From assembly GCF_963675165.1 (NCBI RefSeq), contig NC_087382.1, positions 3,449,963 through 3,513,962 of the forward strand: a stretch of 64,000 nucleotides of DNA, read 5' to 3'. Below are positions 1-61,366 of this stretch, piece by piece. Below the pieces are notes generated by a model, which was not told the DNA's origin, searched no databases, and saw nothing but the letters and a program-made list of their open reading frames with translations. The position numbers and the translations under genes are program-made. The stretch is from Halichondria panicea (taxonomy: Eukaryota > Porifera > Demospongiae > Suberitida > Halichondriidae). The first letter of the stretch is position 1, and every line of letters starts with the position of its first letter.

Positions 1-3000
1 ACAACCAGGCAAGTTATGAAAAAACATTTCACCGGCATCCTAAATAATTGGCATAGCTATACATTATAAAGAGATTAGTGGTGTGCATAATGTTATGTTT
101 ACACGACTCAACAACTGTTACTCATGGCAACCAGGCACGACGTTATGAACATATTTAACCGAAATTGTTATCACGAGGAATTCCTAGTAAATTGTTATCT
201 GAGTACATTTTCCTCAATGAAGTAAAAAAATGTCATGCCAGCAAAGGCTTCGCCATGCATACAGTAATTATAACTATACCATAGCTATATATTATTTATA
301 GTCAGTCACATTTACTTCCTTGTACATTCAGGAAAAGATGGTATTGGGAGTCAAACAGCTGTTCCACTCACACAAGACGAGGCTGATGCTCTGCAGAAGC
401 TTCTCGAGGGAGCACAAGTCACCATTGTTCATCCCATTGTTGCTGGCACAATCACTCTGGAGGATGTTCAGCAGCTGCTTACTCAGAGAGGACTGGAGAT
501 TATGGCCGACGACCTCAGGACAAGACTCAGACTAAGTAAGCTTAAAATTACTATTTTTAGTGCTTATCACATGATCTCCAGTCAATCAGTTTAGCTTAAA
601 GTAGTCACACGACCGTGATTTGTAATCTCCACACTTAACTGATTACTTGCCAAATGGTTCTCGCTAAAATTTCAATGTTTTGTTATTTTTCATATGATCA
701 AAGTAACTTAATCTCTACTAATTTCTCCATAATTATAGTTATGACTGAGCAACAAAGAAACCTCGAGATACTCAACAATCTAATGACAGATGAAGACACT
801 ATCGATGTTTGTTACCCAAGGCTATTTCTTGTTGGGCCGCCATCTGTTGGCAAGACGACCACACTCAATCGACTGCTGGGGGAGTTTGAGAACATTGACT
901 CTGCTGGAGACAAAGCCAAGCTTAGAAGCACACTGCTTGCTAACTGCAAACAAATACTTGCCTTCGTTAATGAAAACACAGCAAAATGGTTGTCATCCAA
1001 AGATGTTGACGAAGAAACAAAGCTCTTGTTTGGCTACTTGCGTGAATCTAAGTCTGAAACCACTCCTAACAAAAAGAGAAGCATCGCAACCTCAACCGAT
1101 TCTCCTGTATTAATACCCAAGCAAAAAACTCGATCTAGACATCCCACAAAAGTGTTTCCGAAAGAAAGCAGATCACCACTACACCAAGCCACAGCTACTC
1201 AGCGTACAACAATGAGTCATCCAAGAAGCAAACTACTACCAATAAAATCAAAATTACAACAGCTAATAAAGAATGCTGACTATTCCAAAATGGCCGATTT
1301 CCTTGGCGATATTTTACTGAACATTCACGACATCGGAGGTCAGCCAGGCTTTTTGGAAATGCTACCAGCCCTGAGCACTGGTCCGGCCATGTATCTAGTG
1401 TTCTTAGATCTCAGTAAGGAACTTGACAAGCTGTACAAAATACCTTTCAGTCGAGATGGTATGGAAATTATTCCCTTCAATTCTGTTCACACTACAGAAG
1501 CCACAATCTCTCAAATCCTCACCTCTATTGCCAGTGTCCATTGCATCTCAAGAGATCCCACTCCTCTTATTGATGTTGACAGAGCTAGTGATGCTCTTAA
1601 AGAAAGAATTAAAACATTTAAACAAGTTAAACCGGTAGCAGCCTTGATAGGCACACACAAAGACAAGCTGACCGACCCCGAGAGACAAATCAGCGAGAAA
1701 AATGAGGCACTTACAAAAGTTATCAATAAATTCCCCGAAATTATTATTTCTCCAAGATCAAAACAGCAGAATATTGAGCACAGCGAACCTATAGACGGAG
1801 CCCATACACAATCAGGTTCAAAATCTTGTTTCTTCTCAGTAGATAACCTCAATGGAACTGAAGTGTCTGACATCGGCCCCGTTCGTAATTTCTTAAGTCG
1901 AATAATTTTGTCTCGCTTCAAAAATGCTTCTCTTCCGATTCGACCGAAATGGCTCATTTTTGGGTTGCTTCTTCGAAAACAATTTCAAATAGCTACAATT
2001 GAAGATTGCTTCGAATTAGGAGAAATGCTAGAAATGCAGAAAGAAGAAGTAAAAGTGTGTCTCTGGTATCTTCACAATTGTGTTGGTACGATCCTCCATT
2101 ACACCAACGTACCTGGTGATGACGGTTGGCTCAAGGGTCACGTGATCTGCACTCTTCAAGCTATCTTTGATAGTATCAGCCAGTTTATTCTTCTTTCTAT
2201 GCGAACGCTTCACTCAGGAGGTCCAGTTACCGACTACGAGCAAGCCGAGTTGGTTAAGAAGGGACAGTTCTCGATCAAATCCATTGAGATGTGTTGCAGA
2301 AACGTGGAAATGTCTGAACTTATTCCCGCAAAGCATCTCATTAAGTTATTGGAGCACGTCAAACTTCTGTCCCCGATATCTCATAAGGATAAATCATCAG
2401 TGGAAGTTGTTCGCACTACCTACTTAATGCCGGCTGTTTTGGAATGTGCTTCACAAGAGGAGCTGGCGAACCCACCTCCACCAGACACCAATAACCCAGA
2501 ACCACTCCACATCACGTTCAGCTTTGGTTACGTACCAACAGGAGTCTTCTGTGGGCTCATCACTCGACTAGTTTCCCAAGGCCGCCATGGAATACTCGGA
2601 TTGACGTGGAAGTTGGTGGAAGATGGTGTCAAGAGAAACTGCGTCTCTTTTCTGATTGCGAAATCAAATAAGATAACGTTAATATCGCATGAAAGAAGTT
2701 ACGAAATACGAGTTACTCGAAATCACGCCCGTCTCTCCCTGCACGACCTTTGCACCTATGTTCTCTCAGTAGTTCTCTACACTCTCACGAGCATGTACGA
2801 GCAGCTAGTCCCACAAGTGGCGTTCCAGTGCCCATGTCCTGGTCACAGCTCAAGCAGGGATAGAAATTCCTTGTGTATTCTGACGGAAGATGTATGGATT
2901 CAGTTTCTGTGTGGCAGTAATCCCGTTACCTTGAGGAAGGAGCAGACAGTTTGGCTTGGAAAGGTGTGTGTACAGTTAGCGTACGTAGAATTATGTTCAT

Positions 3001-4263
3001 GTGTTCTTGCGGTGCTATTTGCAGTGTGTCAATCTTATAATTAGTCACGATAATGTTTCCATTCATTCTACAGACCAAGAAGGTTGGTGAGGAAACTAAA
3101 CTAGAGGTGCTAAAGTTTTCTAAAGATAGTTTCTCCTTTCACTGGATTAAAGAGGGTCAGATCAAGACAACTGACGATCAGCCCAACACTCTGAGTTTCC
3201 CGAGTGTGAAAGAGGAGGACTTTGGTCACTACCAGTGTGAGGTGAAGGATGCAGCTGCTGGGAAAGTGCTCCTCACTCTCTACAGAGCTCTCTACAAAGA
3301 GAAGACAAGTCAGTTAACTGAGTATGATTAAGGATGTACTTACTTTTAACATCACATTTACTTTAGATGAAATCTCTACTAAAAGGAATGAAGAGCCAAA
3401 AAGCTATGACACTACCAGTACATCTATTGTAAAGACGCCATCATCAGGTTTGATTGTTTCTACGAACTGTTCGACAAACACTGTTGTTCACTGATCACTC
3501 CTATATAGATGAGGGGTCCCTGTCATCAGAAAGGCTCCAATACTCAGCAGATCCAGTCCAGAGAGTTGGAACTATATCAGCTGGTGAAGACAATCAAGTC
3601 CGTACTAGAAGAGGTAAATTCACTGCTAAATAAAACAATTATTATATTATTATGTATTTTCATCAATGTTAATTTATTTCCTCTCTATAATTATAGAATC
3701 ACCCGCTAATCGAGCCACTCTCCAAGGACTAATAAATCATTACAATCTGATTGACGAGCAACTCAACAGTGAAATCAAGAAAGCTGATACTCCCTTTATA
3801 GCTGAATATTTCGATAATGCGGAACTTTATTCGAGTGCAATGGGACTAACTACTGCTGAAGAAGCTGACGTGAAAGAATCACGTGGAAATCAAGTAGCCA
3901 TGATGAAATGCCTGCAAATCTGGAAAGAACGTTATCCTTCACAAGCAACTTACAGAGCTCTACTGGATATCGTACTGAGATTGGGGAAAGGAGAAACAGC
4001 TGATAAAATATGTCGGCAATTGACCCAACGTAAGTACATGTGTATCAGTGCCCCTCCCCCTTTTCCTCTCCCCTCTAGAAAGCAACTGAGTAGCTATCTT
4101 GCTCATGTCGAGTTGTATAGAGCATATTTATATCCACTTTGTTGGTGTCTTATATAATTTTAGCTAGACTGCACAGCCGCTCTCAGTGCACTGTGATAAT
4201 GACAACCTGTAGTTTATCAAAATGATCTGTTTCTATTATTGTACAGATCGTACACTGGACTGA
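1..4263 (+). CDS. Gene A: ankyrin-Roc-COR-Ig-Death protein, 5' end outside window
   Basis: Exons inferred from splice signals, phase and agreement with the sister copies: 1-8 (end of the last ankyrin exon), 332-535, 739-2963, 3074-3310, 3367-3447, 3509-3613, 3697-4029, 4247-4263 (stop TGA). The 739-2963 exon is open throughout and carries P-loop GPPSVGKTT, switch motif DIGGQP and base-recognition motif THKD, followed by a COR-like half (YLHNCVGTILHY, KGHVICTLQAIF). The next exon is an Ig-like domain with a W core and DFGHYQCEV. Two short linker exons lead to a Death-domain exon (about 111 aa) ending in a tiny HRTLD exon. The first intron uses a GC donor at 9-10. No disabling change is visible, so it is probably functional. 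Its COR C-terminal portion matches gene D rather than gene B. The Roc-COR assignment is from motifs; the signalling role is inferred. Confidence 0.82.
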
Positions 4264-4466
4264 TGAAGTGATTACACATGCAGTGTGTTGGATTGTACAA
4301 ACACTCATTAGAACAGATAGTGACATGTAGCTATATAATTGTATGCCGCTTCATTTATAGGTAAAATAGCTATCCATTTTTAGTACTGGATAACCGCTGA
4401 TTTCCACTAGTCATTAGAGACGTTGATATTGCGTGATGTTTCATTTTAGGTTACTTAATACATTTT

Positions 4467-5339: not shown

Positions 5340-6212
5340 AGGGGTCTCTGTCATCAGAAAGGCTCCAATACTCAGCAGCTCCAGTCCAGAGAGTAGGAAC
5401 TCCATCAGCTGGTGAAGACAATCAAGTCTGTACTACAATAATATTAGGTATATTTCCTGAAGTAGCTAGTTATGTATCTATGTATGGTTATTTAATGTTT
5501 GTCCCTCTACAGGATCACCTGCTAATCAAGTCGCTCTCCAAGAACTAATGAGGCGATACAATCTGACTGACGAGCAACTCAACCGTGAAATAGTGGACTC
5601 CGATACTCCCGTAATGGCCTTAAATTTTGATGACGTGGAAATGTATTCAACTGCAATGGGGCTAGCTATTGCTAAACAAGCTGATGTGAAGAAGGTGTAC
5701 CATTGCGAAGGAACTCAAGCAGCCATGATGAAGTGCCTGCAAGTTTGGAAAGAACGTGATTCTTTTCAAGCAACTTACAGAGCTCTACTGGATATTGCAC
5801 TGAGTTTGGGGAAAGGAGACACAGCTGATAAAATCTGTCATCAATTGACCCAACGTAAGTACATGTGTATCAGTGCCCCTCCCCTTTTTTCCTCTCCCCT
5901 CTAACAAGCAACTGAGCCGGTAGCTATCCAACTCATGCATGTAACTGAACTCACACCAGAGAAGTATTTCATAATGAGTACATAGCTAGTAGGTTGTACA
6001 AGTATAGGATTGACAGTGCAATTGTGTGTTTTCAATTATTGCACAAATTATCACTCTGTTCATAATTATATACATTTCCACTTGTTGGTGTCTATATAGC
6101 TAGACTGCACTCTCAGCTAGTGCACTGTTGATATGACAACCTATAGTTTATCAAAATGATCTACATATTGTTTCTATATTATTGTACAGATCGTACACTG
6201 GACATGAAGTGA
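5340..6212 (+). CDS. Extra linker + Death-domain cassette downstream of gene A
   Basis: A linker stretch (about 5340-5447), a Death-domain exon (5513-5854, 342 nt, phase 1-1) and a terminal exon (6190-6212, encoding HRTLDMK then TGA) repeat the 3' end of the ROCO-like gene. The Death exon has a full reading frame with the family core (FDDVEMYSTAMGL, LQVWKERDSFQATYRALLDIAL). The linker has lost the normal acceptor: the usual ...tatag/ATGAG is replaced by unrelated sequence at a recombination junction near 5338. Gene A exons 3613 or 4029 end in phase 1 and could splice directly to 5513, giving an alternative or second Death domain as in gene C. Otherwise it is a relic without a promoter. Confidence 0.6.
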
Positions 6213-8710: not shown

Positions 8711-8796
8711 ACACACACCCTCACCCCCCCCCCACACACACTCACACACACACTCACCCCCCCACACACACACACTCACACAACCCCCCCTCCCCC

Positions 8797-12901: not shown

Positions 12902-15900
12902 ATGGGACAGGAACAGTCTGCTGAGTAAGTGATCGTCTTACAGCCTAACATTTTTATTGCTTTTAAACAGGAAACAGGCCAAGGAGTTATGGTTTGCTGC
13001 TGGGAATGGTAATGTCAGTAAATTGAAGTCCCTGCTGGCATGTGGGGCCAACCCTAACCACCCCAAGTATTATCGATTATGCAACTATCCATTACACATT
13101 GCTTGTGGGAATGGTCACCTGGAGATAGTGAAGGCACTTGTTGAGGCTGGAGCAGACACTGAGAGAAGGGATTCTTCCGGCATCTCTCCAGTTCATTATG
13201 CAGCCATGTGTTATAAGAAGGTGTTGGTTTACTTGATCAGGGATTGCAAGTGCAGCGCTGGTGAGTAGTTTTCCATTCACTAGCAGTTGCTACATAACTC
13301 CCCCGGCCAACCCTATATATAGCAATTTTTCACATTGCAAATATTTTTGTGGGACTTTAATATCAGTTTAATTTGTAACGAATACGGAATACATGCATGG
13401 CTTGGGCTTCTTAATTTTGAATGAGTTGGTTATGTACACGAACTATGCGTTCGAGGCCTTGAGGGCCTGGCTTAGGGATGGACATTTAGTTCCTTTACAA
13501 ATGCACCAGTCCTGTAATATTTAAATATTTGTGATACCAACATTCACTTTGTGTATAGATGCCAGGGACGAGGACAACAATACTCCACTCCACTATGCAT
13601 GCTGTGGTGGTAACCTAGATGTGGTGCAGTACTTGGTGGAGGAGGCCCACTGTGACATCAGTGAGTGTATCATAATTTTGTCTGTCCCTGTGTACACATT
13701 TGTTGTTATGAACACTTTCAGATGTACGTAACAACAACAACAAGACTGTACTTCATACAGCCTGCCGTCCCTACCTACGTATAATTCGTGAGTCGAAGTA
13801 ATTAGAGATTATAGTAACTACATAGCCCTAAAAGTACTTGTTTGTAACAAACCAGAAATAAGAGTATATGCATGTAATAGATATAGCATGGGAGACCGAG
13901 TGTTTTATGGAATATACAGGTACAAGCATAAGGGTGAAGCTCCGAGGGCGAGTTGCTTGCATATTTCAATAAAACACGAGGATTCTCATGTTATAATATT
14001 ATGCAGGACGACCCCTTACCAAAACGTGTAATAAGAACACGGAAGGAACTGTATGACTTTTATTACATCCTTGTAACCTATATAAAATTATAAGATCCTT
14101 ACAATACAGTGCATGTATTATTATAACCAACTGCATTCCCGTTCAATATTGTAACTTTAGGTGCGACATCGCCTTCCCGTCAGCTTGCAGTGGTGAAGTA
14201 CTTGGTTGAGAAGGCTAACTGTGACATCAGTGAGTTTATTTAAATGTAATGTGTATACAATCTCTTGACCATTAACACATGTATGCAGATGCTACCGATA
14301 ATGAAGGCAAAACACCCCTTGACATAGTTAAAGGGAGGAGTCGTTACGAGGACATTGTTGACTACCTCAAGACTCGACAAGAATCATTTAGACAACCAGG
14401 CAAGTTATGAAAAAACATTTCACCGGCATCCTAAATAATTGACATAGCTATACATTATAAAGAGATTAGTGATGTGCATAATGTTATGTTTACACGACTC
14501 AACAACTGTTACTCATGGCAACCAGGCACGACATTATGAACATATTTAACCGAAGTTGTTATCACGAGGAATTCCTAGTAAATTGTTATCTGAGTACTTT
14601 TTCCTCAATGAAGTAAAAAATGTCTTGCCAGCAAAGGCTTCGCCATGCATACAGTAATTATAACTATACTTTACCATAGCTATATATAATTTTATAGTCA
14701 GTCACATTTACTTCCTTGTACATTCATGCAGGAAAAGATGGTGTTGGGAGTCAAACAGCTGTTCCACTCACACAAGACGAGGCTGATGCTCTGCAGAAGC
14801 TTCTCGAGGGAGCACAAGTCACCATTGGTCATCCCATTGTTGCTGGCACAACCACTCTGGAGGATGTTCAGCAGCTGCTTACTCAGAGAGGACTGGAGAT
14901 TATGGCCGACGACCTCAGGACAAGACTCAGACTAAGTAAGCTTAAAATTACTATTTTTAGTGCTTATCACATGATCTCCAGTCAATCAGTTTAGCTTAAA
15001 GTAGTCACACGACCGTGATTTGTAATCTCCACACTTAACTGATTACTTGCCGAATGGTTCTCGCTAAAATTTCAATGTTTGTTATTTTTCATATGATCAA
15101 AGTAACTTAATCTCTACTAATTTCTCCATAATTATAGTTATGACTGAGCAACGAAGAAACCTCGAGATACTCAACAATCTAATGACAGATGAAGACACTA
15201 TCGATGTTTGCTACCCAAGGCTATTTCTTGTTGGGCCGCCATCTGTTGGCAAGACGACCACACTCAACCGACTGCTGGGGGAGTTTGAGAACATTGACTC
15301 TGCTGGAGACAAAGCCAAGCTTAGAAGCACACTGCTTGCTAACTGCAAACAAATACTTGCCTTCGTTAATGAAAACACAGCAAAATGGTTGTCATCCAAA
15401 GATGTTGACGAGGAAACAAAGCTCTTGTTTGGCTACTTGCGTGAATCTAAGTCTGAAACCACTCCTAACAAAAAGATAAGCATCGCAACCTCAACCGATT
15501 CTCCTGTATTAATACGCAAACAAAGAACTCGATCTAAAAATGCGACAAAACAAGAAAGCAGATCACCACTACACCAAGCCACAGCTGCTCAGCGTACGAC
15601 AATGAGTCATCCAAGAAGCAAACTATTACCAATAAAATCAGAATTACAACAGCTAATAAGGAATGCAGACTATTCCAAAATGGCTGATTTCCTTGGCGAT
15701 ATTTTACTGAACATTCACGACATCGGAGGTCAGCCAGGCTTTTTGGAAATGCTACCAGCCCTGAGCACTGGTCCGGCCATGTATCTAGTGTTCTTAGATC
15801 TCAGTAAGGAACTTGACAAGCTGTACAAAATACCTTTCAGTCGAGATGGTATGGAAATTATTCCCTTCAATTCTGTTCACACTACAGAAGCCACAATCTC

Positions 15901-18647
15901 TCAAATCCTCACCTCTATTGCCAGTGTCCATTGCATCTCAAGAGATCCCACTCCTCTTATTGATGTTGGCAGAGCTAGTGATGCTCTTAAAGAAAGAATT
16001 AAAACATTTAAACAAGTTAAACCGGTAGCAGCCTTGATAGGCACACACAAAGACAAGCTGACCGACCCCGAGAGACAAATCAGCGAGAAAAATGAGGCAC
16101 TTAAAAAAGTTATCCAAAAATTCCCCGAAATTATTATTTCTCCAGGATCAGAACAGCAGAATATTGAGCACAGCGAACCTCTAGACGGAGCCCGTACACA
16201 ATCAGGTTCAAAATCTTGTTTCTTCTCAGTTGATAACCTCAATGGAACTGAAGTGTCTGACATCGGCCCCGTTCGTAATTTCTTAAGTCGAATAATTTTG
16301 TCTCGTTTCAAAAATGCTTCTCTTCCAATTCGACCGAAATGGCTTATTTTTGGGTTGCTTCTTCGAAAACAATTTCAAATAGCTACAATTGAAGATTGCT
16401 TTGAATTAGGAGAAATGCTAGAAATGCAGAAAGAAGAAGTAAAAGTGTGTCTCTGGTATCTTCACAACTGTGTTGGTACGATCCTCCATTACACCAACGT
16501 ACCTGGTGATGACGGTTGGCTCAAGGGTCACGTGATCTGCACTCTTCAAGCTATCTTTGATAGCATCAGCCAGTTTATTCTCCTTTCTATGCGAACGCTT
16601 CACTCAGGAGGTCCAGTTACCGACTACGAGCAGGCCGAGTTGGTTAAGAAGGGACAGTTTTCGATCAAATCCATTGAAATGTGTTGCAGAAACGTGGAAA
16701 TGTCTGAACTTATTCCCGCAAAGCATCTCATTAAGTTATTGGAGCACGTCAAACTTCTGTCCCCGATATCTCATAAGGATAAATCATCAGCGGAAGTTGT
16801 TCGCACTACCTACTTAATGCCGGCTGTTTTGGAGTGTGCTTCACAAGAGGAGCTGGCGAACCCACCTCCACCAGACACCAACAACCCAGAACCACTCCAC
16901 ATCACATTCAGCTTTGGTTACGTACCAACAGGAGTCTTCTGTGGGCTCATCACTCGACTAGTTTCCCAAGGCCCCCATAAAATCCTCGGATTGACGTGGA
17001 AGTTGGTGGAAGACAGTGTCAAGAGAAACTGCATCTCTTTCTATGTAGATGGTATTCACAAGGTGACTCTGCTCTCGCACGAAAAGAGCTACGAAATTCT
17101 AGTTTCCCGTGAGGATCCAGAATCTTCTCTGCACGACCTTTGCGCTCATGCACTCTCTGTCGTTCTGTATTTCCTCAAAACCTTGTATGAGAATTTGGTT
17201 CCATTAATCGCATTCCAGTGTCCCTGTTCCAATCACAAAACCAAACGAGACGTCACTAATTTATGTACTATTTCCGATGGTTCAAAAGTTCGATTTCTTT
17301 GTAACGATTCTATGAAGCTCGTTAAATTAAAACCGGAACAACGGATCTGGCTTGGAAAGGTAAGTATTTTTGTAACCATTAACTGTATTAATGATGCGAA
17401 TTAATTCGCTACAGACCAAGAAGGTTGGTGAGGAAGCTGAACTAAAGGTGCTAAAGTTAGCTGAGGATGGTTTTTTCTTCCACTGGACCAAAGAGGGCTC
17501 CAGACGTCAGATCAAGACCACTGATGATCGGCCCAACACTCTGAGCTTCCCGAATGTGAGAGAGGAGGACTTTGGTCACTACCAGTGTGAGGTGAAGGAT
17601 GCAGCTGCTGGGAAAGTGCTCCTCACTCTCTACACAGCTCTCTACAAAGAGGAGACAAGTCAGTTAGCATTGAGGTGTATGCCACACTTACGTTCAATCT
17701 TTTTACATCACATTATATTTTAGCCGAATTCTCTACTGAAAGGAATGAAGAGCCAAAAAGCAATGACACTAAATCTATTGTAAAGACGCCATCATCAGGT
17801 TTGATTGTTTCTACGAACTATTCTACAAACACTGTTGTTCACTGATCACTCCTATAGATGAGAGGTCCCTGTTATCAGAAAGGCTCCGATACTCAGCAGC
17901 TCCAGTCCAGAGAGTAGGAACTCCATCAGCTGGTGAAGATAATCAAGTCCGTACTAGAATATTAGGTATATTTCCTGAAGTAGCTAGTTATGTATGTTGC
18001 ATGGTTTTAATGTCTGTCCCTCTACAGGATCATCCGCTAATCAAGTCGCTCTACAAGAACTAATGAGGCGATACAATCTGACTGACGAGCAACTCAACCG
18101 TAAAATAAGGAGCTCCGATTGTTCGTACCTGGCCATATATTTCGATGATGTGGAAATTTATTCAAATGTCATGGAACTAGCTTCGGCTGAACAAGCTGAC
18201 GTGAAGAGGTTATACCATAGCGAAGGAACTCGAGCAGCCATGATGAAGTGCTTGAAAATCTGGAAAGAACACAATTCTTCTCAAGCAACTTACAGAGCTC
18301 TACTGGATATTACACTGAGTTTGGGGAAAGGAGACACAGCTGATAAAATCTGTCATCAATTGACCCAACGTAAGTACATGTGTATCAGTGCCCCTCCCCT
18401 TTTCCTTGCCCCTCTAACAAGCAACTGAGCCGGTAGCTATCCGACTCATGCATGTAACTGAAATCACACCAGAGAACTATTTCATAATGAGTATACATAG
18501 GATTGACAGTCACAGTGCAATTGTGTGTGTTTTCAATTATTGCACAAATGATCTCAGCTAGTGCACTGTTGCTATGACAACCTATAGCTTATCAAAATGA
18601 TCTACATATTGTTTCTATATTATTGTACAGATCGTACACTGGACTGA
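12902..18647 (+). CDS. Gene B: complete ankyrin-Roc-COR-Ig-Death protein (1290 aa predicted)
   Basis: Thirteen exons add up exactly in frame: 12902-12924, 12971-13260, 13559-13660, 13722-13787, 14161-14229, 14289-14399, 14732-14935, 15138-17359, 17415-17658, 17724-17798, 17858-17965, 18028-18369, 18631-18647. The start MGQEQSAE fits the N-myristoylation pattern (Gly2, Ser6). Ankyrin repeats fill about residues 9-220 (YPLHIACGNGHLEIVKALVEA, NTPLHYACCGGNLDVVQYLV). A roughly 68-aa linker precedes the GTPase: GPPSVGKTT near 321, DIGGQP near 482, THKD near 590. A COR-like region with a CPC...C cluster runs to about 1029, an Ig-like domain to about 1110, Ser/Thr linkers to about 1171 and a Death domain to about 1285. 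Likely a GTP-regulated scaffold recruiting death-fold partners; this role is inferred. The intron after 14399 has a GC donor. Confidence 0.85.
14400..14405 (+). other. GC splice donor (GCAAGT) of gene B, after the last ankyrin exon
   Basis: The exon ends CCAG at 14399 and is followed by GCAAGT, the typical strong GC-AG donor. Genes A (9-14) and D (53726-53731) have the same donor; gene C has GTAAGT at 26831-26836. Confidence 0.75.
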
Positions 18648-34100: not shown

Positions 34101-36779
34101 AACAGATCTCTTTGAAGATCAGCTCAGAAGAACTTGGAAATTAAAAAAATCAGAAATCAAAAAATTAATGAGTGAGTAAACATATATAAACTTGATGATT
34201 TTATTCCATTTTGACTATTTCTAAAGAAAAAGGATTTACAAGTATCAGAGAACTGAAACGTCTCCAGCTTGACACGCTGGACTTTAACGAGGGTGAGAAG
34301 GAAAGGATGAGACCACTCCTCGCTTCTCTTCAGACAAACAAATCTGACAGTTCTTCAGGTACACATGCTATAATAATTTTCATCAGTGTTACTTGCTGAT
34401 AAAGTACTTATACTTATGATCATACCTGATGTAAACGTTTGAGACATTCATTTAACAATGTACATTTGAAGGGTAATGGTCAATTGGAAAGCCTTAACCA
34501 ATAATACTCAGTCTACCAATCCAGTTATTGTTGACGTGACTGTTTGTTGTTAAGCTTTCAGTGAGTTATCTTGTACCATTGTGCATGTTTGTGTGCATTT
34601 AATATATACAACCAAAGATATCATATTGTTCTCAGCTTCAGGTAAATTATCTGCTGGAACAAGTAAAGAGTTAAAATGCAATAGTACCGAATTCATTGTG
34701 AAGACGCCATCATTAGGTTTGGTTGTTTCAACGAACTATAACACTGTTATTAATTGAACATGCACTCCTATAGATGAGGGGTCCCTGTCATCAGAAAGGC
34801 TTCAACACTCAGCAGCTCCAGTCCAGAGAGTTGGAACTACAATATCATCATTAGCAGGTGGGGACAGTCAAGTCCGTAATTGTATATATTTCCAGATAAG
34901 TAAATAACCTCACTGCTGAAACAGATAGCTATTTTATATGTATGACATCACATTGGTCTTCAGGTGAATTACGTACTACAAGGAGGAAGCGTAAAAACAT
35001 CGAATCCATTGTGAAGACACCATCATCAGGTTTGTTTCAACTAACTGTGACACACTGTTTTAACTGAACACTATAGATGAGTCAACGAAAAGGCGCAAGA
35101 GCACGGCTTCAGCTAGTGACAAAGTCATTACTACTCAAGGAGGTAAATGTACTGCTGAATCAGATAAGTATGAATAATTGTTCACGCCATGCATATATTT
35201 CCAGATAAGTAAATAACCTCACTGCTGAAACAGATAGCTATTTTATATGTATGACATCACATTGGGCTTCAGGTGAATTACGTACTACAAGGAGGAAGCG
35301 TAAAAACACCGAATCCATTGTGAAGACACCATCATCAGGTTTGTTTCAACTAACTGTGACACACTGTTTTAACTGAACACTATAGATGAGTCAACGAAAA
35401 GGCGCAAGATCACGGCTTCAGCTAGTGACAAAGTCATTACTACTCAAGGAGGTAAATGTACTGCTGAATCAGATAAGTATGAATAATTGTTCACGCCCAC
35501 TAATCAATGCTCTTCCCCCCTCTACAGGATCACCTGCTAATCGAGTCTCTCTCCAAGAACTAATGAGGCAATACAGTCTGACTGACAAGCAGCTCAACCG
35601 TGAAATAATTAACTCTGAATTTTCCTACCTGGCCAAATATTTCGATGATGTAGAAATTTATTCGAATGCCATGGAACTAGATCCTGCCGAACAAGCCGAT
35701 GTGAAGAGGTTGCACCATAGCGAAGGTTCTCAAGCAGCCATGATGAAATGTTTGAAAACCTGGAAACAACATAATTCTTCACGAGCAACTTACAGAGCTC
35801 TACTGGATATCGTACTAAGCTTGGGGAAAGGAGACACAGCTGATCGTATTTGTCGACAATTGACCCAACGTATAAGTACATGTGTATCAGTGCCCGCCCC
35901 TCCCCCTTTTCCTCTCCCCTCAGCAGCTCCAGTCCAGAGAGTAGAAACTACACCAGCTAGTGAAGACAGTCAAGTCCGTACTAGAATATTAGGTATATTT
36001 CCTGAAGCAGCAATGTATGTATATGTATATGGGTGTTTAATGTTTGCCCCTCTACAGGACCACCTGCTAATCGAGTCACTCTTCAAGAACTAATGAGGCG
36101 ATACAATCTGACTGACGAGCAACTCAACCGTGAAATAGTGGACTCCGATACTCCCGTAATGGCCTTAAATTTTGATGATGTGGAAATGTATTCAACTGCA
36201 ATGGGGCTAGCTATTGCTGAACAAGCCGATGTGAAAGAATCACGTGGAAATCAAGCAGCCATGATGAAGTGCCTGCAAGTCTGGAAAGAACGTGATCCTT
36301 TTCAAGCAACTTACAGAGCTTTGCTGGATATTGCACTGAGTTTAGGGAAAGGAGAAACAGCTGATAAAATCTGTCAGCAATTGACCCAACGTAAGTACAT
36401 GTGTATCAGTGCCCCTCCCCTTTTCCTCTCCTCTCTAGAAAGCAACGAGTATAGCTATCCAAACAGTTGGACTGCAATCACACCTTCTATATAATTAATT
36501 TTTACAAAACGCCTGCATACATACCGTATAGCGTGTAATTTTCGTGGGGCAAAATGTTCGTGGTTTTCGTGGTTGGAGGTCTGACCACGAATATTTTACC
36601 CACGAATGAAGCGACTTTGCCTACCTTTACCTGCAGTGAAAGCTCCAACCATGAAAATATTACCCACGAAATGTCTCAATATTGCTGAACCACGAATATT
36701 TTGTCCCCCGAAAATTACCCGCTATACCATGATTATTTAATTTCCACTTTTCCTGATTGCAGATCATACACTGGACTGA
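25195..36779 (+). CDS. Gene C: divergent ankyrin-Ig-Roc-COR-Ig protein with two Death domains (1767 aa by this model)
   Basis: Model exons: 25195-25220, 25267-25544, 25840-25941, 26003-26065, 26610-26669, 26723-26830, 27160-27363, 28390-28659, 29748-29954, 31411-33731, 33795-34053, 34106-34171, 34227-34358, 34642-34716, 34774-34881, 34964-35029, 35077-35142, 35273-35338, 35386-35451, 35528-35869, 35924-35992, 36058-36390, 36763-36779. The lengths total a multiple of three. It starts MGQEQSADQ; ankyrins follow. An extra Ig exon (ISKFLPKHKGVYWCVAEDG) precedes a diverged Roc-COR with GPGQVGKST and DIGGQP, a second Ig (LFKCQVKD), basic linkers and two Death exons. The model skips a broken Roc exon at 27679. 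Alternatively 25195-28041 is a truncated gene and the rest a separate gene with its own start. Confidence 0.6.
27679..28041 (+). pseudogene. Broken Roc exon remnant inside gene C
   Basis: It starts like the gene A/B GTPase exon (MTEQQRNL, then GPPSVGKTT) but an 8-bp deletion near 27868 shifts the frame, giving stops at 27891-27893 in one frame and near 28039 in the other. Homology to genes A/B ends soon after. The flanking exons are both phase 1, so the transcript could skip it. Confidence 0.75.
28660..29747. other. Intron of gene C with possible degenerate insertion
   Basis: No coding exon is seen. Sequence near 28803-28850 (GTAGATAGTGGGGGGCAGG) is loosely inverted near 29190-29230 (AAACTATCTACGGCCCCAGG), suggesting an old non-autonomous element of about 420 bp. 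The pairing is imperfect. Confidence 0.3.
29965..30148. mobile_element. MITE of the TATAGCGGGTAATTTTCG family, gene C intron
   Basis: Left end CGTATAGCAGGTAATTTTCG, then CGGGGTA; right end TACCCCACAAAAATTACCCG, then CTATATGG. The inverted ends match with a few differences. About 180 bp, no coding capacity. Confidence 0.75.
30752..30947. mobile_element. MITE of a related TATAGCGGG family, gene C intron
   Basis: Left end TGTATAGCGGGTATATTTTG, then GAGGGTATAAATG; right end CGCGAAAATTTATACCCTCG, then AAAT. Inner motifs (CGCGGATTAAG, CCACGAAAACC) resemble the copy at 38893-39054. Confidence 0.65.
34884..35501. repeat. 309-bp tandem duplication carrying two linker exons of gene C
   Basis: Units 34884-35192 and 35193-35501 are almost identical. 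Each contains a 66-nt exon encoding ELRTTRRKRKN... and a 66-nt exon encoding DESTKRRKSTASASDKV. All four exons are phase 1-1 and the frame is kept. Confidence 0.85.
36526..36728. mobile_element. MITE of the TATAGCGGGTAATTTTCG family, last intron of gene C
   Basis: Left end CGTATAGCGTGTAATTTTCG, then TGGGGC; right end CCCCCGAAAATTACCCGCTA, then TA. The interior has repeated CCACGAATATTTT motifs. About 200 bp, non-coding, and just upstream of the terminal exon at 36763. Confidence 0.8.
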
Positions 36780-37525: not shown

Positions 37526-37767
37526 TATTATGACACCTTTATAATTATACCAACCAAATTAAACTCAATCTATAGCAATTACACTTTCATACTGTGACTA
37601 TAATACCATGCAGGAAAACTAATGGTTGATAACAGCACTTTTCTGAGCAAAATTGGCCAAAATAAACTTGTTCCATTACAATAAGTATTATGCTAACTAA
37701 CTAGCCAACTAACTCTACAGCCTCCTATGAAGTCCAGTCTCTTCTGTACAGTATTATATACAGACGG

Positions 37768-40522: not shown

Positions 40523-40558
<36 letters not shown>

Positions 40559-52052: not shown

Positions 52053-55000
52053 ATGGGACAGGAACAGTCCAAAAGTATGGGACAGGAACAGTCCAAAAGT
52101 ATGGGACAGAAACAGTCTGCTGAGTAAGTGATCGTCTTACAGCCTAACATTTTTATTGTTGTTTTTTAAACAGGAAACAGGCCAAGGAGTTATTGGTTGC
52201 TGCTTGGAATGGTAATGTAAGCAAAGTGAAGTCCCTGCTGGCACGTGGGGCCAACCCTAACCACCCCGGGTACTATCCATTACGCATCTATCTATTACGC
52301 ACTGCTTGTGGGAATGGTCACCTGGAGATAGTGAAGGCACTTGTTGAGGCTGGAGCAGACACTGAGAGACGGGATGGTTTGGGCAGGTCTCCAGTTCATT
52401 TTGCAGCCTTTAATGGTCATAAGGAGGTGTTGGTTTACTTGATCAGGGATTGCAAGTGCAGCGCTGGTGAGTAGTTTTCCATTCACTAGCAGATGCTACA
52501 TAACTCCCCCGGCCAACCCTATATATAGCAATTTTTCACATTGCAAATATTTTTGTGGGACTTTAATATCAGTTTAATTTGTAACGAATACGGAATACAT
52601 GCATGGCTTGGGCTTCTTAATTTTGAATGAGTTGGTTATGTACACGAACTATGCGTTCGAGGCCTTGAGGGCCTGGCTTAGGGATGGACATTTAGTTCCT
52701 TACAAATGCACCAGTCCTGTAATATTTAAATATTAGTGATACCAACATTCACTTGTGTATAGATACCAGGGACAAGAACAGCGATACTCCACTCCACCAT
52801 GCATGCTATCGTGGTCACCTAGATGTGGTGCAGTACTTGGTGGAGGAGGCCCACTGTGACATCAGTGAGTGTATCATAATTTTGTCTGTCCCTGTGTACA
52901 CATTTGTTGTTATGAACACTTTCAGATGTACGGAACAACAACAACCAGACTGTACTTCATTTAGCCTGCAGTCGTCGCACCGGCCTAAGTATAAGTATAA
53001 GTGGTGAGTCGAAGTAATTAGAGATTATAGTAACTACATAGCCCTAAAAGTACTTGTTTGTCAAACCAGAAATAAGAGTATATGCAGATATAGTATGAGA
53101 CCGAGTGTTTTATGAGGTACAAGCACAAGGGTGAAGCTCCGAGGGCGAGTTGCTTGTATATTTCAATAAAACACGAGGATTCTCATGCTATAATATTATG
53201 CAGGACGACCCCTTACCAATGTGTAATAAAATAATAGAACACGGAGGGGACTGTATCACTTTTATTACACCCCTTGTAACCGATATAAATTTATAAGATT
53301 CTTGCATACAGTGCATGTATTATTATAACCAACTGCATTCCCGTTCAATATTGTAACTTTAGGTATGAAGTCGATGCATTCCAATCAGCATGCATGCACC
53401 TTGCCCCCTCTCTCTCGCCCACCACGATCATCATCTGTAGCCATAGCAACAAATCATCATAATGAATAGCATGTCCATTCTAATTATAACACCTTTAGGA
53501 TCCGATATGCTTGCAGTAGTGCAGTACTTGGTTGAGAAGGCTAACTGTGACATCAGTGAGTTTATTTAAATGTAATGTGTATACAATCTCTTGACCATTA
53601 ACATGCACATGCAGATGCAACTGATAATGAAGGCAGGACACCACTTGACGCAGCTAAAAGGTGGAGTGGTTATGAGCCCATTATTGACTACCTCAAGACT
53701 CGACAAGAATCATCTAGACAACCAGGCAAGTTATGAAAAAACATTTCACCGGCATCCTAGATAATTGGCATAGCTATACATTATGAAGAGATTAGTGATG
53801 TGCATAATGTTATGTTTACACGACTCAACAACTGTTACTCATGGCAACCAGGCACGTTATAAACATATTTAACCGAAATTGTTATCACGAGGAATTCCTA
53901 GTAAATTGTTATCTCAGTGCATTTTCCTCAATGAATAATTAAGTAAAAACTTTCCTGCCAGTAAAGGCTGAACCATGCATTCAGTAATTATAAGTATACT
54001 TATACCATAGATATATATAATTTTATAGTCAGTTATATTTACTTCCTCACACATTCAGGAAAAGATGGTGTTGGGAGTCGACCAGCTGCTCTACTCACAC
54101 AGGACGAGGCTGATGCTCTGCAGAAGCTTCTCGAGGGAGCACAAGTCACCATTGGTCATCCCATTGTTGCTGGCACCACCACTCTGGAGGAAGTTCAGCA
54201 GCTGCTTACTCAGAGAGGACTGGAGGATATGGCCGCCAACCTCAGGACAAGACTCAGTTACAGTAAGCACCCTTAATCGAATGGAAATTATTTATTTTTG
54301 GTTGATACAGTTCTCGCAGCTCAGCAAAGAAACTTGGAGATACTTGATAGTCTTATGAAGTCGACAAATTCTATCACTCTTTGTTACCTAAAGCTCTTTC
54401 TTGTTGGGCCACCATTTGTTGGCAAGACGACCACACTCAATCGACTGCTAAAATATTTCAAGAATATTCATTTAGAACCTGAGAAGGCAAAGCTTAGGAG
54501 TACTCTTCTTGCTAACTGTTTTCAGGTATTTGCTTTAGTAAGCAATGATGGAACCGAATGGTTGTCTTCTAAGGATCTGAATGAAGAAGCTGCACTGTTG
54601 TTCAGATATTTCTGTGGCAGTGATCTTGAATTTGTAAGAAATAGTTACTCTGAGACTGTTGGAATTAGTGATTCTGAATCTGTAGGAGGAAGTAGTGATT
54701 CAGTAGATAGTGACTCTGAATCTGTAGAAAGCAGTGACACTGAAAACTTGAATTTTGAAACTAGATACGAATCCACTACACCACCTACTCATTTTGCCAA
54801 AAAGACAAGAGAAGTGGGAGATGACACCACAGACGAACGGCTAGCTCGAGTACGAGACTGTATATCACGATTACAAAATGTGATTAAAAATAAAGATCAG
54901 TCTAAAGAACTGCTTAAACACATAGAGGGTAGCACACTGCTAAACATTAACGATATAGGAGGGCAACCTGCATTCCTAGAGATGCTACCAGCCCTGAGCA

Positions 55001-58000
55001 ATGGTCCTGCCATGTATCTAGTATTTGCTGACTTGAGCAAAGAGCTCAATAAACCGTACAAAATTCCTTTCAGTCGAGATGACATAACCATCACTCCTTA
55101 CGACGCCATGCATTCCGTTGAATCCACTGTTTCTCAGATCCTGTCTTCAATTGCTAGCATTCATCGCATCTCTCAAGAACCAGTTCCGTTTAAACTCGAC
55201 AGATCAACTGCTTTTGGTCAGCAATTTAAGAAGCTCCAGGAAGTGCGTCCAATGGCAACACTAATAGGCACACACAAAGACAAGTTGGAAGAACCAGTTG
55301 ACCAGAAAATTTCAGAGTTTGATTCAGTTCTTACAAAAGTTACTTCTAATTATAAGAACATTATTGCTAACCCTTCACCAAACCACACAATTTTTGCAGT
55401 TGATAACTTTTCAGGAACAGATACAGAAGATATAGCACCAATCCGAGGTTTTTTGAGTGACATATTTGAGAAACAATTTAAAGATTCTTCTATTCCCATT
55501 CAACCAAATTGGCTCTGGTTTAGTTTGATACTGCGACGAGAATACTGCATTGCTCCGATGGATGATTGTGTTATCATTGCTAGAGATCTTGGCATCAAAG
55601 AAGATGAGCTGGAGCTTTGCCTTTGGTATCTTCACTATTGCACTGGAACCATTATGTATTATCCCAATATACCCGGGAAATACTTCAAAGGACATGTGAT
55701 CTGCACTCCTCAAGTTGTGTTTGATAGCATTAGTGAATTTATTGTGGCTTCTCTGCGCACTATCCATGGTGATGGGGCGGTTATTGAATCAGAACGAGTT
55801 GAACTGATTAAAAAGGGACAATTTTCGATGAAATCCATTGAAAAATACTGCAAATGTCCTCAAGTTAAAGAAAAGCTGGAAGAAAGAAAGCTCATCCCAG
55901 CAAAGCATCTTGTAAAACTCCTCGAATATGTTCACCTTCTATCACCAATAGTCCATACGCAATCCGACAAGGAAGAAATTACCTATATAATGCCGGCTGT
56001 TTTGGAGTGTGCTTCACAAGACGAGCTGACCAACCCACCTCCACCAGACACCAACAACCCAGAACCACTCCACATTACATTCAGTTTTGGTTACGTACCA
56101 ACAGGAGTCTTCTGTGGGCTCATCACTCGACTAGTTTCCCAAGGCCGCCATGGAATACTCGGATTGACGTGGAAGTTGGTGGAAGATTGTGTCAAGAGAA
56201 ACTGCGTCTCTTTTCTGATTGCGAAATCAAATAAGATAACGTTAATATCTCATGAAAGAAGTTACGAAATACGAGTTACTCTAAATCACGCCTATCTCTC
56301 CCTGCACGACCTTTGCACCTATGTTCTCTCGGTAGTTCTCTACACTCTCATGAGCATGTACAAGCAGCTAGTCCCACAAGTGGCGTTCCAGTGCCCATGT
56401 CCTAGTCACAGCTCAAGCAGGGATAGAAATTCCTTGTGTATTTTGACAGAAGATGTATGGATTCAGTTTCTGTGTGGCAGTAATCCCGTTACCTTGAGGA
56501 AGGAGCAGACAGTTTGGCTTGGAAAGGTGTGTGTACAGTTAGCGTACGTAGAATTATGTTCATGTATTCTACTTGCCTGTCTTACTATTTGCCGCATGTT
56601 AGTCACATGCATCCCTTATTTTCAACAGACCAAGAAGGTTGGTGAGAAAGCTGAACTAGAGGTGCTAAAGTTTGCTGAGGAAGGTTTCTCCTTCCACTGG
56701 ACCAAAGAGGGCTCCAGACGTCAGATCAAGACAACTGATGATCAGCCCAACACTCTGAGCTTCCCGAGTGTGAGAGAGGAGGACTTTGGTCACTACCAGT
56801 GTGAGGTGAAGGATGCAGCTGCTGAGAAAGTGCTCCTCACTCTCTACAGAGCTCTCTACAAAGAGGAGTCAAGTCAGTTAGCATATATTGAGAGTATAAT
56901 TATATATGTGTGCCAATTGTCACGGTATGCCACACTTACATTCAATATTTTAACTGCTTCAGGTGAATTCTCTACTGAAAGGATTGAAGAGCCAAAAAGC
57001 AATAGCACTAAATCTATTGTAAAGACGCCATCATCAGGTTTGATTGTTTCTACGAACTATTCTACAAACACTGTTATTCACTGATCACTCGTATAGATGA
57101 GGGGTCCCTGTCACCAGAAAGGCTCCAACCCTCAGCAGCTCCAGTCCAGAGAGCAGAAACTCCATCAGCTGGTGGTGACAGTCAATTCCGTACTCAAAAA
57201 GGTATATTTCTTTATACACATGTAGCTGTGTATGATATTGTCACATCATCAATCAATGATTTATGCCCTCTACAGGACCACCCGCTAATCGAGTCGCTCT
57301 CCAAGAACTAATGGGACGATACAATCTGACTAACGAGCAACTTAACCGTGAAATAAGTAACCCTAATTTTTCCTACCTGGCCATATATTTCGATGATGTG
57401 GAAATTTATTCGAATGCCATGGGACTAGCTTCTGCTGAACAAGCCGATGTGAAGAGGTTATACCATAGCGAAGGTTCCCAAGCAGCCATGTTAAAGTGTT
57501 TGAAAATCTGGAAACAACACAATTCTTCTCAAGCAAGTTACAGAGCTCTACTGGATATCATACTGAGATTGGGGAAAGGAGACACAGCTGATAAAATCTG
57601 TCAGCAATTGACCCAACGTAAGTACATGTATATCAGTGCCCCTCCCCGTTTCCTCGCCCCTCTAACAAGCAACTGAGCCGGTAGCTATGCAACTCATGCA
57701 TGTAACTGAACTCACACCAGAGAAGTATTTCATAATGAGTACATAGCTAGTAGGTTGTACATAATTATAGGATTGACAGTGCAATTGTGTGTTTTCAATC
57801 ATATTTCACCGCGTTTCGTCTGACTGACTAAGTAAGTAAGTATGTAAGTAAGTAAGTAAGTAAGTAAGTAATATTCTTGGAAAGCATTTCCTCCTTGTAC
57901 AGACATGTTCAGAAGATTCTAGATACAGCCTCTAGTCGACTAGAACCCGGACCATGGGCGTTTTTCTCAGAATTGCGTCCGCTTCCAAGAGGCAGATGAC

Positions 58001-58970
58001 CTCTCAGGCTCCACTTTTCTTACCTACGCAATTCCGCCATCTTTAAATGACTGCCACAGCAACGCACATGGCAACTTATGAGGTGGGCGTGGCTGTGACA
58101 TCGATAAACACAAAACCTCCTTTCTTCAGCTCAGCTCTCCATTCACTCACTTCATGTATGCTATTTATCCTAGATGCATGCACTAAAAAACATTTGCAAT
58201 GTGAACGTTGCTAGGATTGCCAGGAAAAGAAAAGCACGAAAAAGCGAAGAAACAAGAAATTCGGCGAGTGCATAACTCCAATCCGTTACAACGTCATGAA
58301 CATGTACAGTCGAGTGGCCTACTGTTGATAAGGAATTTTAAAATCGAAATATAGATTGGATAAACACACAGTCATTGGTCTTTATCTGCTGGTCATGAAT
58401 ATAACTTGGAATACTCCCATCCACACATCCAACACTTGCGTGTTTGCTCAACACTGTAAGGGAGTCATAAACACATAACTATAGCCTGCAAAAAATGTAC
58501 ATAATTAACATCACTATAATTATTACTTGCAATGTGAAAGGATTGGCCAGGAAAAGTACCAAAACAAAAATAATAATTATTAATAACTTATTGAAACAGT
58601 ACATGTTCATGACGTTGTAACGGATTGGAGTTATGCACTCGCCGAATTTCTTGTTTCTTCGCTTTTTCGCGCTTTTCTTTTCCTGGCAATCCTAGCAACG
58701 TTCACATTGCAAATGTTTTTTAGTTTTGATAATTATAGGATTGACAGTGCAATTGTGTGTTTTCAATTATTGCACAAATTATCACTCTGTTCATAATTAT
58801 ATACATTTCCACTTGTTGGTGTCTATATAGCTAGACTGCACTCTCAGCTAGTGCACTGTTGACATGACAACCTATAGTTTATCAAAATGATCTACATAAT
58901 ATGTAGATCATTTTGATAAACTATATAATTATTGTTTCTATATTATTGTACAGATCGTACATTGGACTGA
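52053..58970 (+). CDS. Gene D: complete ankyrin-Roc-COR-Ig-Death protein (1304 aa predicted)
   Basis: Exons: 52053-52123, 52174-52466, 52763-52864, 52926-53003, 53499-53555, 53615-53725, 54059-54262, 54311-56526, 56629-56872, 56963-57037, 57097-57201, 57276-57617, 58954-58970; the total is in frame. The start repeats the myristoylation-like motif three times (MGQEQSKS, MGQEQSKS, MGQKQSAE). Ankyrins follow; the fourth exon has a short AGTATA repeat encoding LSISIS. The GTPase has GPPFVGKTT, DIGGQP and THKD and is clearly diverged from A and B, with a unique Ser/Asp/Glu-rich insert (about 54640-54760). The COR C-terminal part is almost identical to gene A. An Ig-like exon, two linkers and a Death domain close the protein. 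The donor at 53726 is GC. The last intron is enlarged by a roughly 960-bp insertion and a perfect palindrome. Confidence 0.85.
57764..58766. repeat. Insertion flanked by about 35-bp direct repeats in the last intron of gene D
   Basis: The sequence ATAATTATAGGATTGACAGT, then GCAATTGTGTGTTTTCAAT, occurs at 57762-57799 and again at 58730-58767. Other copies have it once. Between them lie a (TAAG)n run (about 57830-57869), unique sequence and a foldback element. The direct repeats suggest local duplication or repair-mediated insertion. Confidence 0.65.
58188..58721. mobile_element. Foldback element with about 120-bp inverted arms
   Basis: The left arm (58188-58307; AAAACATTTGCAATGTGAAC, then GTTGCTAGGATTGCCAGG...) and the right arm (about 58602-58721) are nearly exact reverse complements, with TA on both outer sides. 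The middle, about 290 bp, has no coding capacity. Confidence 0.8.
58873..58925. repeat. Perfect 53-bp palindrome
   Basis: Arms of 26 bp (TATAGTTTATCAAAATGATC, then TACATA) around a single central A. It lies 28 bp upstream of the terminal exon of gene D. The sister copies have only the left arm at this point. Confidence 0.9.
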
Positions 58971-59223: not shown

Positions 59224-59732
59224 TGTCGCCATGATTTCTGCTGGGTGTGTCTTGAAACCTGGAGTCTACACAATCACAGGACTGGGGGATACTTTACGTA
59301 AGTCGTACATTGCCAATTTACATTCAAAAACGCTCTTCAGAAAAGCGTGGCCATATAAATAATAATGCTCTTATACAACATGATTGTCTACTATCAGAGT
59401 TATACGTGTACTATGGTACCTATAGCCTCTTACACAGGCCTGTTGAGAAAAGGAGGCATGTGCAAGATATTTTCTACATGTATGTATATACTATCTACTC
59501 AGTTGCCCATTGATATCCCTCCTCCCCCGTCCTCCCTTTATAGCTGCAGCTGATTTTCTAAGCCCCACCACTAATATATTTACTATCTTCTTGACATGCA
59601 GTTGTCCATTGACCCCCTCTCCTTCGTAGCCGTTTAACCGGTTCAGGGCTCAGGAGAAGGCCAACACGACAGTGGAGAGGTCCAGAGGAGACATGGAGGC
59701 TGCCTATGTTAAGAAAGCTACAGAGGAGCTGG
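59224..59732 (+). pseudogene. ANKIB1: ANKIB1-like fragment (RING2 and start of helical region)
   Basis: It holds CRHDFCWVCLETWSLHNHRTGG (59224 on, Trp intact) and FRAQEKANTTVERSRGDMEA up to AAYVKKATEE. Two extra bases after the acceptor (CCGTTTAACCGG) shift the frame. It runs without a break into ROCO-family COR sequence at about 59730. Confidence 0.7.
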
Positions 59733-61366
59733 TGAACCCACCTCCACCAGACACCAACAACCCAGAACCACTCCACATCACATTTAGCTTTGGTTACGTA
59801 CCAACAGGAGTCTTCTGTGGGCTCATCACTCGACTAGTTTCCCAAGGCCCCCATAAAATCCTCGGATTTAAGTGGAAGTTGGTGGAAGACAGTGTCAAGA
59901 GAAACTGCGTCTCTTTCTATGTAGATGGTGTTCACAAGGTGACTCTGCTCTCGCACGAAAAGAGCTACGAAATTCGAGTTTCCCGTGAGGATCCAGAATC
60001 TTCTCTGCACGACCTACGGATCTGGCTTGGAAAGGTAAGTATTTTTGTAACCATTAATTGTATTAATGATGCCAATTAATTCGCTACAGACCAAGAAGGT
60101 TGGTGAGGAAGCTGAACTAGAGGTACTAAAGTTTGCTGAGGATGGTTTTTTCTTCCACTGGACCAAAGAGGGCTACAGACGTCAGATCAAGACAACTGAT
60201 GATCGGCCCAACACTCTGAGTTTCCCGGGTGTGAGAGAGGAGGACTTTGGTCACTACCAGTGTGAGGTGAAGGATGCAGCTGCTGGGAAAGTGCTCCTCA
60301 CTCTCTACACAGCTCTCTACAAAGAAGACACAAGTCAGTTAGCATTGAGATGTATGCCACATTTATACGTTCAATCTTTTTTTATGCTTTTAGAAGAATT
60401 TTCTACTAAAAGGAATGAAGAGCCAAAAAACAATAGCACTATAAAGACGCCATCATCAGGTTTGATTGTTTCTACGAACTATTCTACAAACACTGTTGTT
60501 CACGTTCAATCTTTTACTGGTACAGGTGAATTCTCTACTGAAAGGAATGAAGAACCAAAACACAATGACACTAAATCTATTGTAAAGACACCATCATCAG
60601 GTTTGATTGTTTCAACTATATTCTACAAACACTGTTGTTCACTAATCACTCCTATAGATGAGGGATCCCTGTCATCAGAAAGGCTCCAATACTCAGCAGC
60701 TCCAGTCCAGAGAGTAGGAACTCCATCAGCTGGTGAAGACAGTCAAGTCCGTACTAGAAGAGGTAAATTCACTGCTAAATAACTATTATTATGATATTTT
60801 GTATTTTCATCAATGTTAATTCATTTCCTCTCTAATTATAGGATCACCCGCTAATCGAGCCCCTCTCCAAGGACTAATAAATCATTACAGTCTGATTGAC
60901 GAGCAACTCAACAGTGAAATCAAGAAAGCTGATTCTCCCAATATAGCTAAAAATTTCGATAATGCGGAACTTTATTCGAGTGCAATGGGACTAACTCCTG
61001 CTGAACAAGCTGATGTGAAGAGGTTGTACCATAGGGAAGGAGTTCAAACGGCCATGATGAAGTGCCTGCAAGTTTAGAAACAGCATAATTCTTCACGATC
61101 AACTTACAGAGCTCTACTAGATATCGTACTGAGATTAGGGAAAGGAGACACAGCTGATAAAATATGTCAGCAATTTACCGAATGTAAGTACATGTGAAGC
61201 TCATGGCGAGTTGTATAGAGCATATTTATATCCACTTTGTTGGTGTCTTATATAATTTTAGCTAGACTGCACAGCCGCTCTCAGTGCACTGTGATAATGA
61301 CAACCTATAGTTTATCAAAATGATCTGTTCTATAATTATTATTGTACAGATCGTACACTGGACTGA
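59672..61366 (+). pseudogene. Gene E: ANKIB1-COR-Ig-Death chimeric remnant
   Basis: ANKIB1 codons (KKATEE) join in frame to the COR end (LVNPPPPDTNNPEPLHITF). An in-frame deletion of about 200 bp then joins SSLHDL to RIWLGK, removing the Cys-rich segment; exon end 60034. Intact exons follow: Ig 60090-60333, linkers 60394-60459, 60526-60600 and 60658-60762. The Death exon 60842-61183 has TAG at 61075-61077 in place of the Trp codon. Terminal exon 61350-61366. There is no Roc domain, ankyrin repeat or recognisable start, so this is a pseudogene. Its COR sequence is of the gene B type. Confidence 0.75.

Follow-up and report, generated by a model that had tools for sequence, protein, structure and literature searches.

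A tandem array of predicted Roco-type genes in the sponge Halichondria panicea, candidate intracellular receptors with a diversified ankyrin surface

Among the receptors that animals use for recognition inside the cell, those best known are the NACHT-based NLRs. They are expanded in at least one sponge according to a published account (PMC12909245), and Roc-COR modules have been described in several comparable settings. DAPK1 has the order kinase, ankyrin (Ank), Roc, COR and Death, and is placed in a third, metazoan group of Roco proteins lacking leucine-rich repeats (LRR), as outlined in the available text of two sources (PMC4917528, PMC6337361). The LRR-ROCO proteins of brown algae are presented as candidate immune receptors whose repeat sensor is encoded by separate in-phase exons subject to shuffling, with positive selection mapping to the concave ligand face (PMC11378527). 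In actiniarians, the NG1 and NG3 groups are reported to fuse a GTPase or Roc-COR module with LRR and TIR domains, or with kinase, SH3, TIR and Death domains (PMC5094078), showing that Roc-COR has joined immune domains elsewhere. Our keyword searches of open-licence papers returned no report of a sponge Roco receptor family. Here, we describe a 64,000-nucleotide (nt) stretch of the Halichondria panicea genome (NC_087382.1, positions 3,449,963 to 3,513,962), hereafter the window, lying within a tandem array of genes predicted to combine ankyrin, Roc, COR, immunoglobulin (Ig) and Death domains. We consider it fairly probable, judging from sequence comparison, that this array encodes germline-diversified, Roco-type intracellular receptors sensing a varying ligand via their ankyrin surface. 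What is new here is the presence of replacement-biased ankyrin exons 2 and 3 beside a little-changed following intron.

The array occupies one strand over ~313 kb, from -95,742 to +217,358 in window coordinates (negative values being upstream of the window start), with a repeat unit of ~12–14 kb in self-comparison. A census of 334 kb around the window recovered 19 near-full matches to ankyrin exon 2 (18 without a stop), 18 linker exons, 14 near-full Roc-COR exons matching that of gene D (14/14 stop-free), 19 Ig exons and 24 Death exons (23 stop-free), and no match to family exons on the minus strand. Two more Roc-COR exons, at 31428 and 129976, are of the class found in gene C, giving at least 16 in the array. 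Genome-wide, the D Roc-COR exon has at least 75 matches at E≤1e-10 on nine contigs, which is a lower bound as 61 of 345 candidates were scored in this 131-Mb genome. RefSeq models of H. panicea are 99.7–100% identical to array units in some exons and 95–98% in others. Among the matches listed (126 distinct proteins), all 26 with an organism name come from H. panicea, and a query with a C-type protein returned no other named species.

Counts of Nei-Gojobori type were made among paralogues for nonsynonymous (dN) and synonymous (dS) differences. For ankyrin exon 2, dN is 0.148 and dS 0.083, with dN>dS in 59 of 66 pairs (12 copies, 4 of the 16 units having escaped the search pattern and the copy at 90743 being a shortened exon), and for exon 3, dN is 0.126 and dS 0.051, with dN>dS in 102 of 120 pairs (16 copies). 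The dN/dS ratio is 0.29 for Roc-COR (0.38 within the B type), 0.46 for the Ig exon and 0.61 for the Death exon; these ratios, together with those of the linker and of ankyrin exon 6 given below, were obtained from near-full matches that lack stops and have an identity of 50% or more. In exons 2 and 3, differences cluster at turn and inner-helix positions of the ankyrin repeats and fall mostly at the surface positions randomised in designed ankyrin binders. The 12 surface columns of exon 2 were set by the ankyrin consensus after the variable positions had been seen, hence not blind, in an analysis leaving out 4 of 15 copies; those of exon 3, one of seven of which is invariant, followed the same rule after the exon-3 sequences had been seen, and the three outermost upstream units of 15 were left out. 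In 13 of 16 units, exon-3 surface codons differ by 27.7% and framework codons by 4.1%, the first 60 nt of the intron that follows differ by 3.1%, and within surface codons, positions 1 and 2 differ by 34% and position 3 by 15%. The framework codons of exon 3 also lean towards dN>dS (85 of 120 pairs; dN≤dS in 143 of 1000 bootstraps). By these counting methods, the ankyrin surface appears to be under diversifying selection, and a pattern of this kind is expected if new binding surfaces are selected for.

Which domains does this surface precede? In gene D, the ankyrin repeats match Ank_2 of Pfam at E 1.1e-32, and LRR, kinase, WD40 and NACHT have no match at E≤10; a kinase match is likewise absent from P0117, a RefSeq protein with the domain order of gene C, and the linker exon of D has no Pfam match. 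As Pfam scores in D gave insufficient support for Roc, COR and Ig, the fold was predicted: an AlphaFold2 model of the D Roc-COR stretch (54322–56526) matches the fold of LRRK2, LRRK1 and bacterial and archaeal Roco proteins, and the LRRK2 match spans model residues 17–735, covering Roc and COR. The sponge Roc is collinear with that of LRRK2, weakly by sequence, and the key residues of G1, G3 and G4 are invariant across 79 sequences. The fold match of this predicted structure identifies Roc-COR, with COR directly after Roc, and by fold and motifs the array proteins are predicted to be Roco family members with a putative GTPase. The Ig assignment rests on the first Ig of gene C, above the Pfam cut-off (Ig_3, E 2.7e-8, 34.6 against 30 bits), the second, Ig-like domain of that gene scoring E 0.022. 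For Death, all six exons scanned have a Pfam match at E≤1 (best 6.4e-5), and the assignment is drawn from relatives above cut-off (P0078, 1.6e-25; P0018, 4.6e-8; P0023, 7e-8). One predicted protein with the order Ank-Roc-COR-Ig-Death, as proposed by an earlier, sequence-only reading of this DNA, is borne out by the in-frame models, by RefSeq P0003 and P0005–P0007, and by the Roc-COR fold match.

Related proteins vary around this core. P0021 (LOC135347138) has kinase, Ank and TIR domains ahead of the same Roc-COR body, and no Pfam match to Ig or Death at E≤0.05; an H. panicea relative, P0031, carries SH3 in its precomputed annotation, and another, P0078, has several Death domains. Judged from its sequence, P0123 (LOC135337779) apparently bears two Roc-COR modules in one chain; its precomputed Pfam domains are Roc, G-alpha, COR-A and Ig, and it has no match of ≥95% in the 254 kb compared. 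The kinase and TIR, SH3, multiple Death domains and apparent second Roc-COR of these relatives fit a modular signalling family.

The five related loci of the sequence-only reading (Table 1) were recovered where it had placed them, all on the plus strand, but a set confined to 61,366 nt falls far short of the array, and locus A extends past the first position of the window, with its ankyrin and start exons upstream at -1396 and -1497. Genes B and D indeed read in frame from start to stop: all acceptors are AG, donors are 11 GT and one GC per gene, and the last exon (HRTLD or HHTLD, then the stop) was placed from RefSeq protein ends. As a list of in-frame loci, however, this pair was incomplete, gene C having a complete frame as well. 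Fragment E is a remnant, as had been proposed, in which an open reading frame (ORF) starting like the Ariadne-like spacer piece described below reads into COR-B and is followed by Ig and by a Death exon that contains a TAG in frame. In locus A, the Roc-COR exon is open over 741 amino acids (aa) and a second Death exon lies at 5518–5853; at gene C, a further Death exon (36060–36389) is not part of the gene model.

Exchange between units is apparent along the array. Over Roc and COR-A, locus A is 93–99% identical to B at the DNA level in 12 windows of comparison, while over COR-B it is 96–97% identical to D in three windows, then 85%, and its identity to B drops to 57–65%; blocks have thus been swapped between units, and some Death and Ig exons are protein-identical between distant units. 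Introns are mostly in phase 1, making exon exchange possible. Gene C has an ankyrin and linker end of the same kind as B and D and a Roc-COR only ~25–28% identical to theirs, and looks like a module replacement because a B-type Roc exon remnant sits in its intron; P0117, of the same domain order, maps to other units of the array. RefSeq isoforms X3 and X7 of LOC135337431 use common ankyrin exons at +109 kb, then different Roc-COR units, joins that may be alignment artefacts of a repetitive array. The ATGGGACAG start exon, encoding MGQxxS, is present in 16 of 19 units (13 MGQEQS, 3 MGQF[LQ]S), the three outer ankyrin units having no match to the pattern, and fits the N-myristoylation rule. MGQFLS is the start of the unit at +109 kb to which P0003 otherwise corresponds, but P0003 itself opens with MGQEQS, and identity to the array is no higher than 95–98% in some P0003 exons. 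Block exchange and a replacement-biased ankyrin surface give quantitative support to the proposal of a rapidly changing array that behaves, in genomic terms, like one of recognition receptors; that its role is immune or allorecognition is what we infer.

Table 1. Positions of the predicted genes, exons and fragments in window coordinates
Feature	Position	Strand	Description
Locus A, 3' part	332..4028	+	linker 332-535, Roc-COR 739-2963, Ig 3074-3308, Death 3702-4028
Gene B	12902..18647	+	13 exons, 1290 aa; in-frame model without internal stop
Gene B, parts		+	MGQEQS start, ankyrin exons 12971-14399, linker 14732-14935, Roc-COR 15138-17359
Gene B, 3' parts		+	Ig 17415-17658, Death 18028-18369, last exon 18631-18647
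Hypervariable ankyrin exons 2 and 3 (example, gene B)	12971..13660	+	dN>dS, differences clustered at surface positions
Gene C	25195..36779	+	21 exons, 1633 aa; in-frame model without internal stop
Gene C, parts		+	MGQEQS start, ankyrin exons 25267-26830, linker 27160-27363, Ig 28390-28659
Gene C, 3' parts		+	second-class Roc-COR 31411-33731, Ig-like 33795-34053, Death 35528-35869
B-type Roc exon remnant, truncated, frame-broken	27669..28036	+	gene C intron; DNA match and two-piece tblastn match
Gene D	52053..58970	+	13 exons, 1301 aa; in-frame model without internal stop
Gene D, parts		+	start exon with three MGQ-type repeats, ankyrin exons 52174-53725, linker 54059-54262, Roc-COR 54320-56526
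Gene D, 3' parts		+	Ig 56629-56872, Death 57276-57617, last exon 58954-58970
Fragment E	59630..61182	+	Ariadne-like/COR-B junction ORF, Ig 60090-60332, Death 60847-61182

The spacers between units hold pieces of other kinds. An APEX1-like exon fragment lies at 48850–49023, with a further copy at ~62990–63130, and its frame ends in a stop; it matches solved AP endonucleases with a best E of 1.4e-17 and is a piece of a neighbour gene carried along by duplications. An IBR/Ariadne-like piece is found at 49134–49436, and others like it lie near 9.9 and 63.8 kb; the sole support for this label is a nearby IBR_1 match below cut-off (E 0.0014), and no match was found for the spacer ORF read as Ariadne-like. 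A second repeated block (37759–42222) occurs also at -27981 and +76606 and contains a 348-aa minus-strand ORF (37771–38814) with no Pfam match. Long CCCCACACAC-type microsatellites are present in spacers at ~8.7–9.1, 21.2–21.5 and 48.2–48.4 kb.

Several observations weigh against diversified Roco-type receptors. The Pfam check bore out the ankyrin repeats strongly and the Ig of gene C, but not the other domains of D, where Roc (15.9 against 27 bits), Ig (Ig_3, 26.0 against 30 bits) and the Death exon taken alone (20.8 against 22.6 bits) fall below the curated cut-offs and COR-A has no match; COR-A in the gene C exon (E 8.3e-7) is also below its cut-off, and a profile search of the Death exons against solved structures matched no Death domain. 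The linker exon has dN 0.069 and dS 0.030 (ratio 2.3, at low divergence; dN>dS in 85 of 91 pairs), an excess that diversification of an ankyrin surface does not predict. The ratio is 1.29 for ankyrin exon 6, with dN≤dS in 57 of 300 bootstraps, and 1.37 for a set of 21 exon-3-like exons mixing several ankyrin exons per unit, with dN≤dS in 45 of 300. Counted without gaps, the last 60 nt of the intron that precedes exon 3 diverge by 13.3%. The proportion of synonymous differences (pS) is raised in surface columns (0.317 against 0.051 in exon 2, 0.126 against 0.030 in exon 3); together with the raised third positions, this suggests that exchange between repeats probably contributes, and local mutation may. 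Pairs are moreover not independent in such simple counts among recombining paralogues, and split or partial Roc-COR copies occur at 27.7, 59.7, 93, 100, 122 and 137 kb.

Other explanations can be set against the same data. Variable ankyrin surfaces might recognise self-type proteins within cells that have fused or are in contact, serving allorecognition instead of anti-microbial defence; a tandem array with block exchange and a diversified surface would suit this, and allo-incompatibility is described for a range of animals that includes sponges (PMC8195603), but the protein start resembles a cytosolic lipidation signal, and we regard this reading as unlikely. Rather unlikely, too, is a duplicated, DAPK1-like housekeeping regulator of cell death or the cytoskeleton, each copy of which would bind a different endogenous partner through its ankyrin end: Ank-Roc-COR-Death is the extracatalytic order of DAPK1 as given in the consulted source (PMC4917528), and dN<dS holds in Roc-COR, Ig and Death, yet no kinase match exists in D or P0117, the relative P0021 carries both kinase and TIR, and 19 ankyrin units with a replacement-biased surface beside a little-changed intron would be unusual for a scaffold. 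A decaying birth-and-death array, with few working genes and a variability largely due to relaxed constraint and recombination, could explain fragment E, the Roc remnant in C, the split or partial Roc-COR at +93, +100, +122 and +137 kb, the outer ankyrin units lacking a start-pattern match, and the APEX1-like and IBR-like pieces dragged along; it is made improbable by stop-free frames in 18 of 19 exon-2 and 14 of 14 near-full Roc-COR matches (fragmented copies cannot count as near-full), by dN<dS in Roc-COR, Ig and Death, and by the concentration of change at surface positions. Directed mutation or repeat conversion, rather than selection on ordinary mutations, is a very improbable source of the surface diversity, for although position 3 of surface codons differs by 15% against 3.1% in the following intron and other 102-nt ankyrin exons of the array are possible donors, the difference at positions 1 and 2 is over double that at position 3 (34% against 15%), so that the change is mainly replacement.

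Diversified Roco-type receptors thus remain our preferred explanation, and from the anatomy of the proteins and the selection pattern, which are what the data establish, we infer each step of a possible mechanism. The protein would be anchored at membranes through N-myristoylation at its MGQxxS start, and the hypervariable surface of its ankyrin repeats would be the site at which a varying ligand binds; binding would change the nucleotide or dimer state of Roc-COR, which would be GTP- and dimer-dependent as in other Roco proteins, and the exposed Death domains could then recruit a death-fold adaptor and signal towards inflammation or cell death. Microbes or non-self tissue would be the source of selection. 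By analogy, these receptors likely sense microbes or foreign tissue and are a candidate early-animal counterpart of NLR immune receptors. A bolder version, which we put forward tentatively, is a combinatorial receptor class built on Roco instead of NACHT, in which ankyrin cassettes with a hypervariable surface like that of designed binders would be mixed with at least three Roc-COR classes and several Death tails. Units would recombine with one another and perhaps also be joined by splicing, to which the different Roc-COR units used by X3 and X7 may point, yielding a large recognition repertoire. If true, an early-branching animal would possess a second receptor chassis beside NLRs, and the GTPase family of LRRK2 and DAPK1 would be tied to ancestral recognition, in parallel with the brown-algal ROCO receptors; the surface columns provide concrete positions for putative ligand binding.

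How does the array compare with these known systems? It resembles animal NLRs (NACHT-LRR, some with Death or CARD, as described) by analogy, in possessing a repeat sensor, an NTPase switch and a death-fold domain, but its NTPase is a predicted Roc-COR and its sensor ankyrin, and it is not a member of the NLR family. With LRRK1, LRRK2 and bacterial and archaeal Roco proteins it shares the predicted Roc-COR fold, while D has no LRR, kinase or WD40 match at E≤10, and the sponge Roc has ~112 more residues between G1 and G3 than that of LRRK2. Ankyrin and Ig are not named for NG1 and NG3 in the portion of the source at hand, and the sponge P0021 is nearest to them in make-up. The sequence-only reading had named no family with this domain order; among those described in our sources, DAPK1 is the closest named order, with ankyrin before Roc-COR, a C-terminal Death domain and no LRR, whereas the array proteins show in D no match to its N-terminal calmodulin-dependent kinase and add an Ig between COR and Death, an MGQxxS start and a large diversified array. 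Compared with the brown-algal LRR-ROCO proteins, the sensor is ankyrin (with no LRR match in D), Ig and Death are added, and the genes belong to an animal and form a whole-gene tandem array; in combining a Roc-COR switch with a diversified repeat sensor, however, these algal proteins are, as far as their published description goes, the closest in mode.

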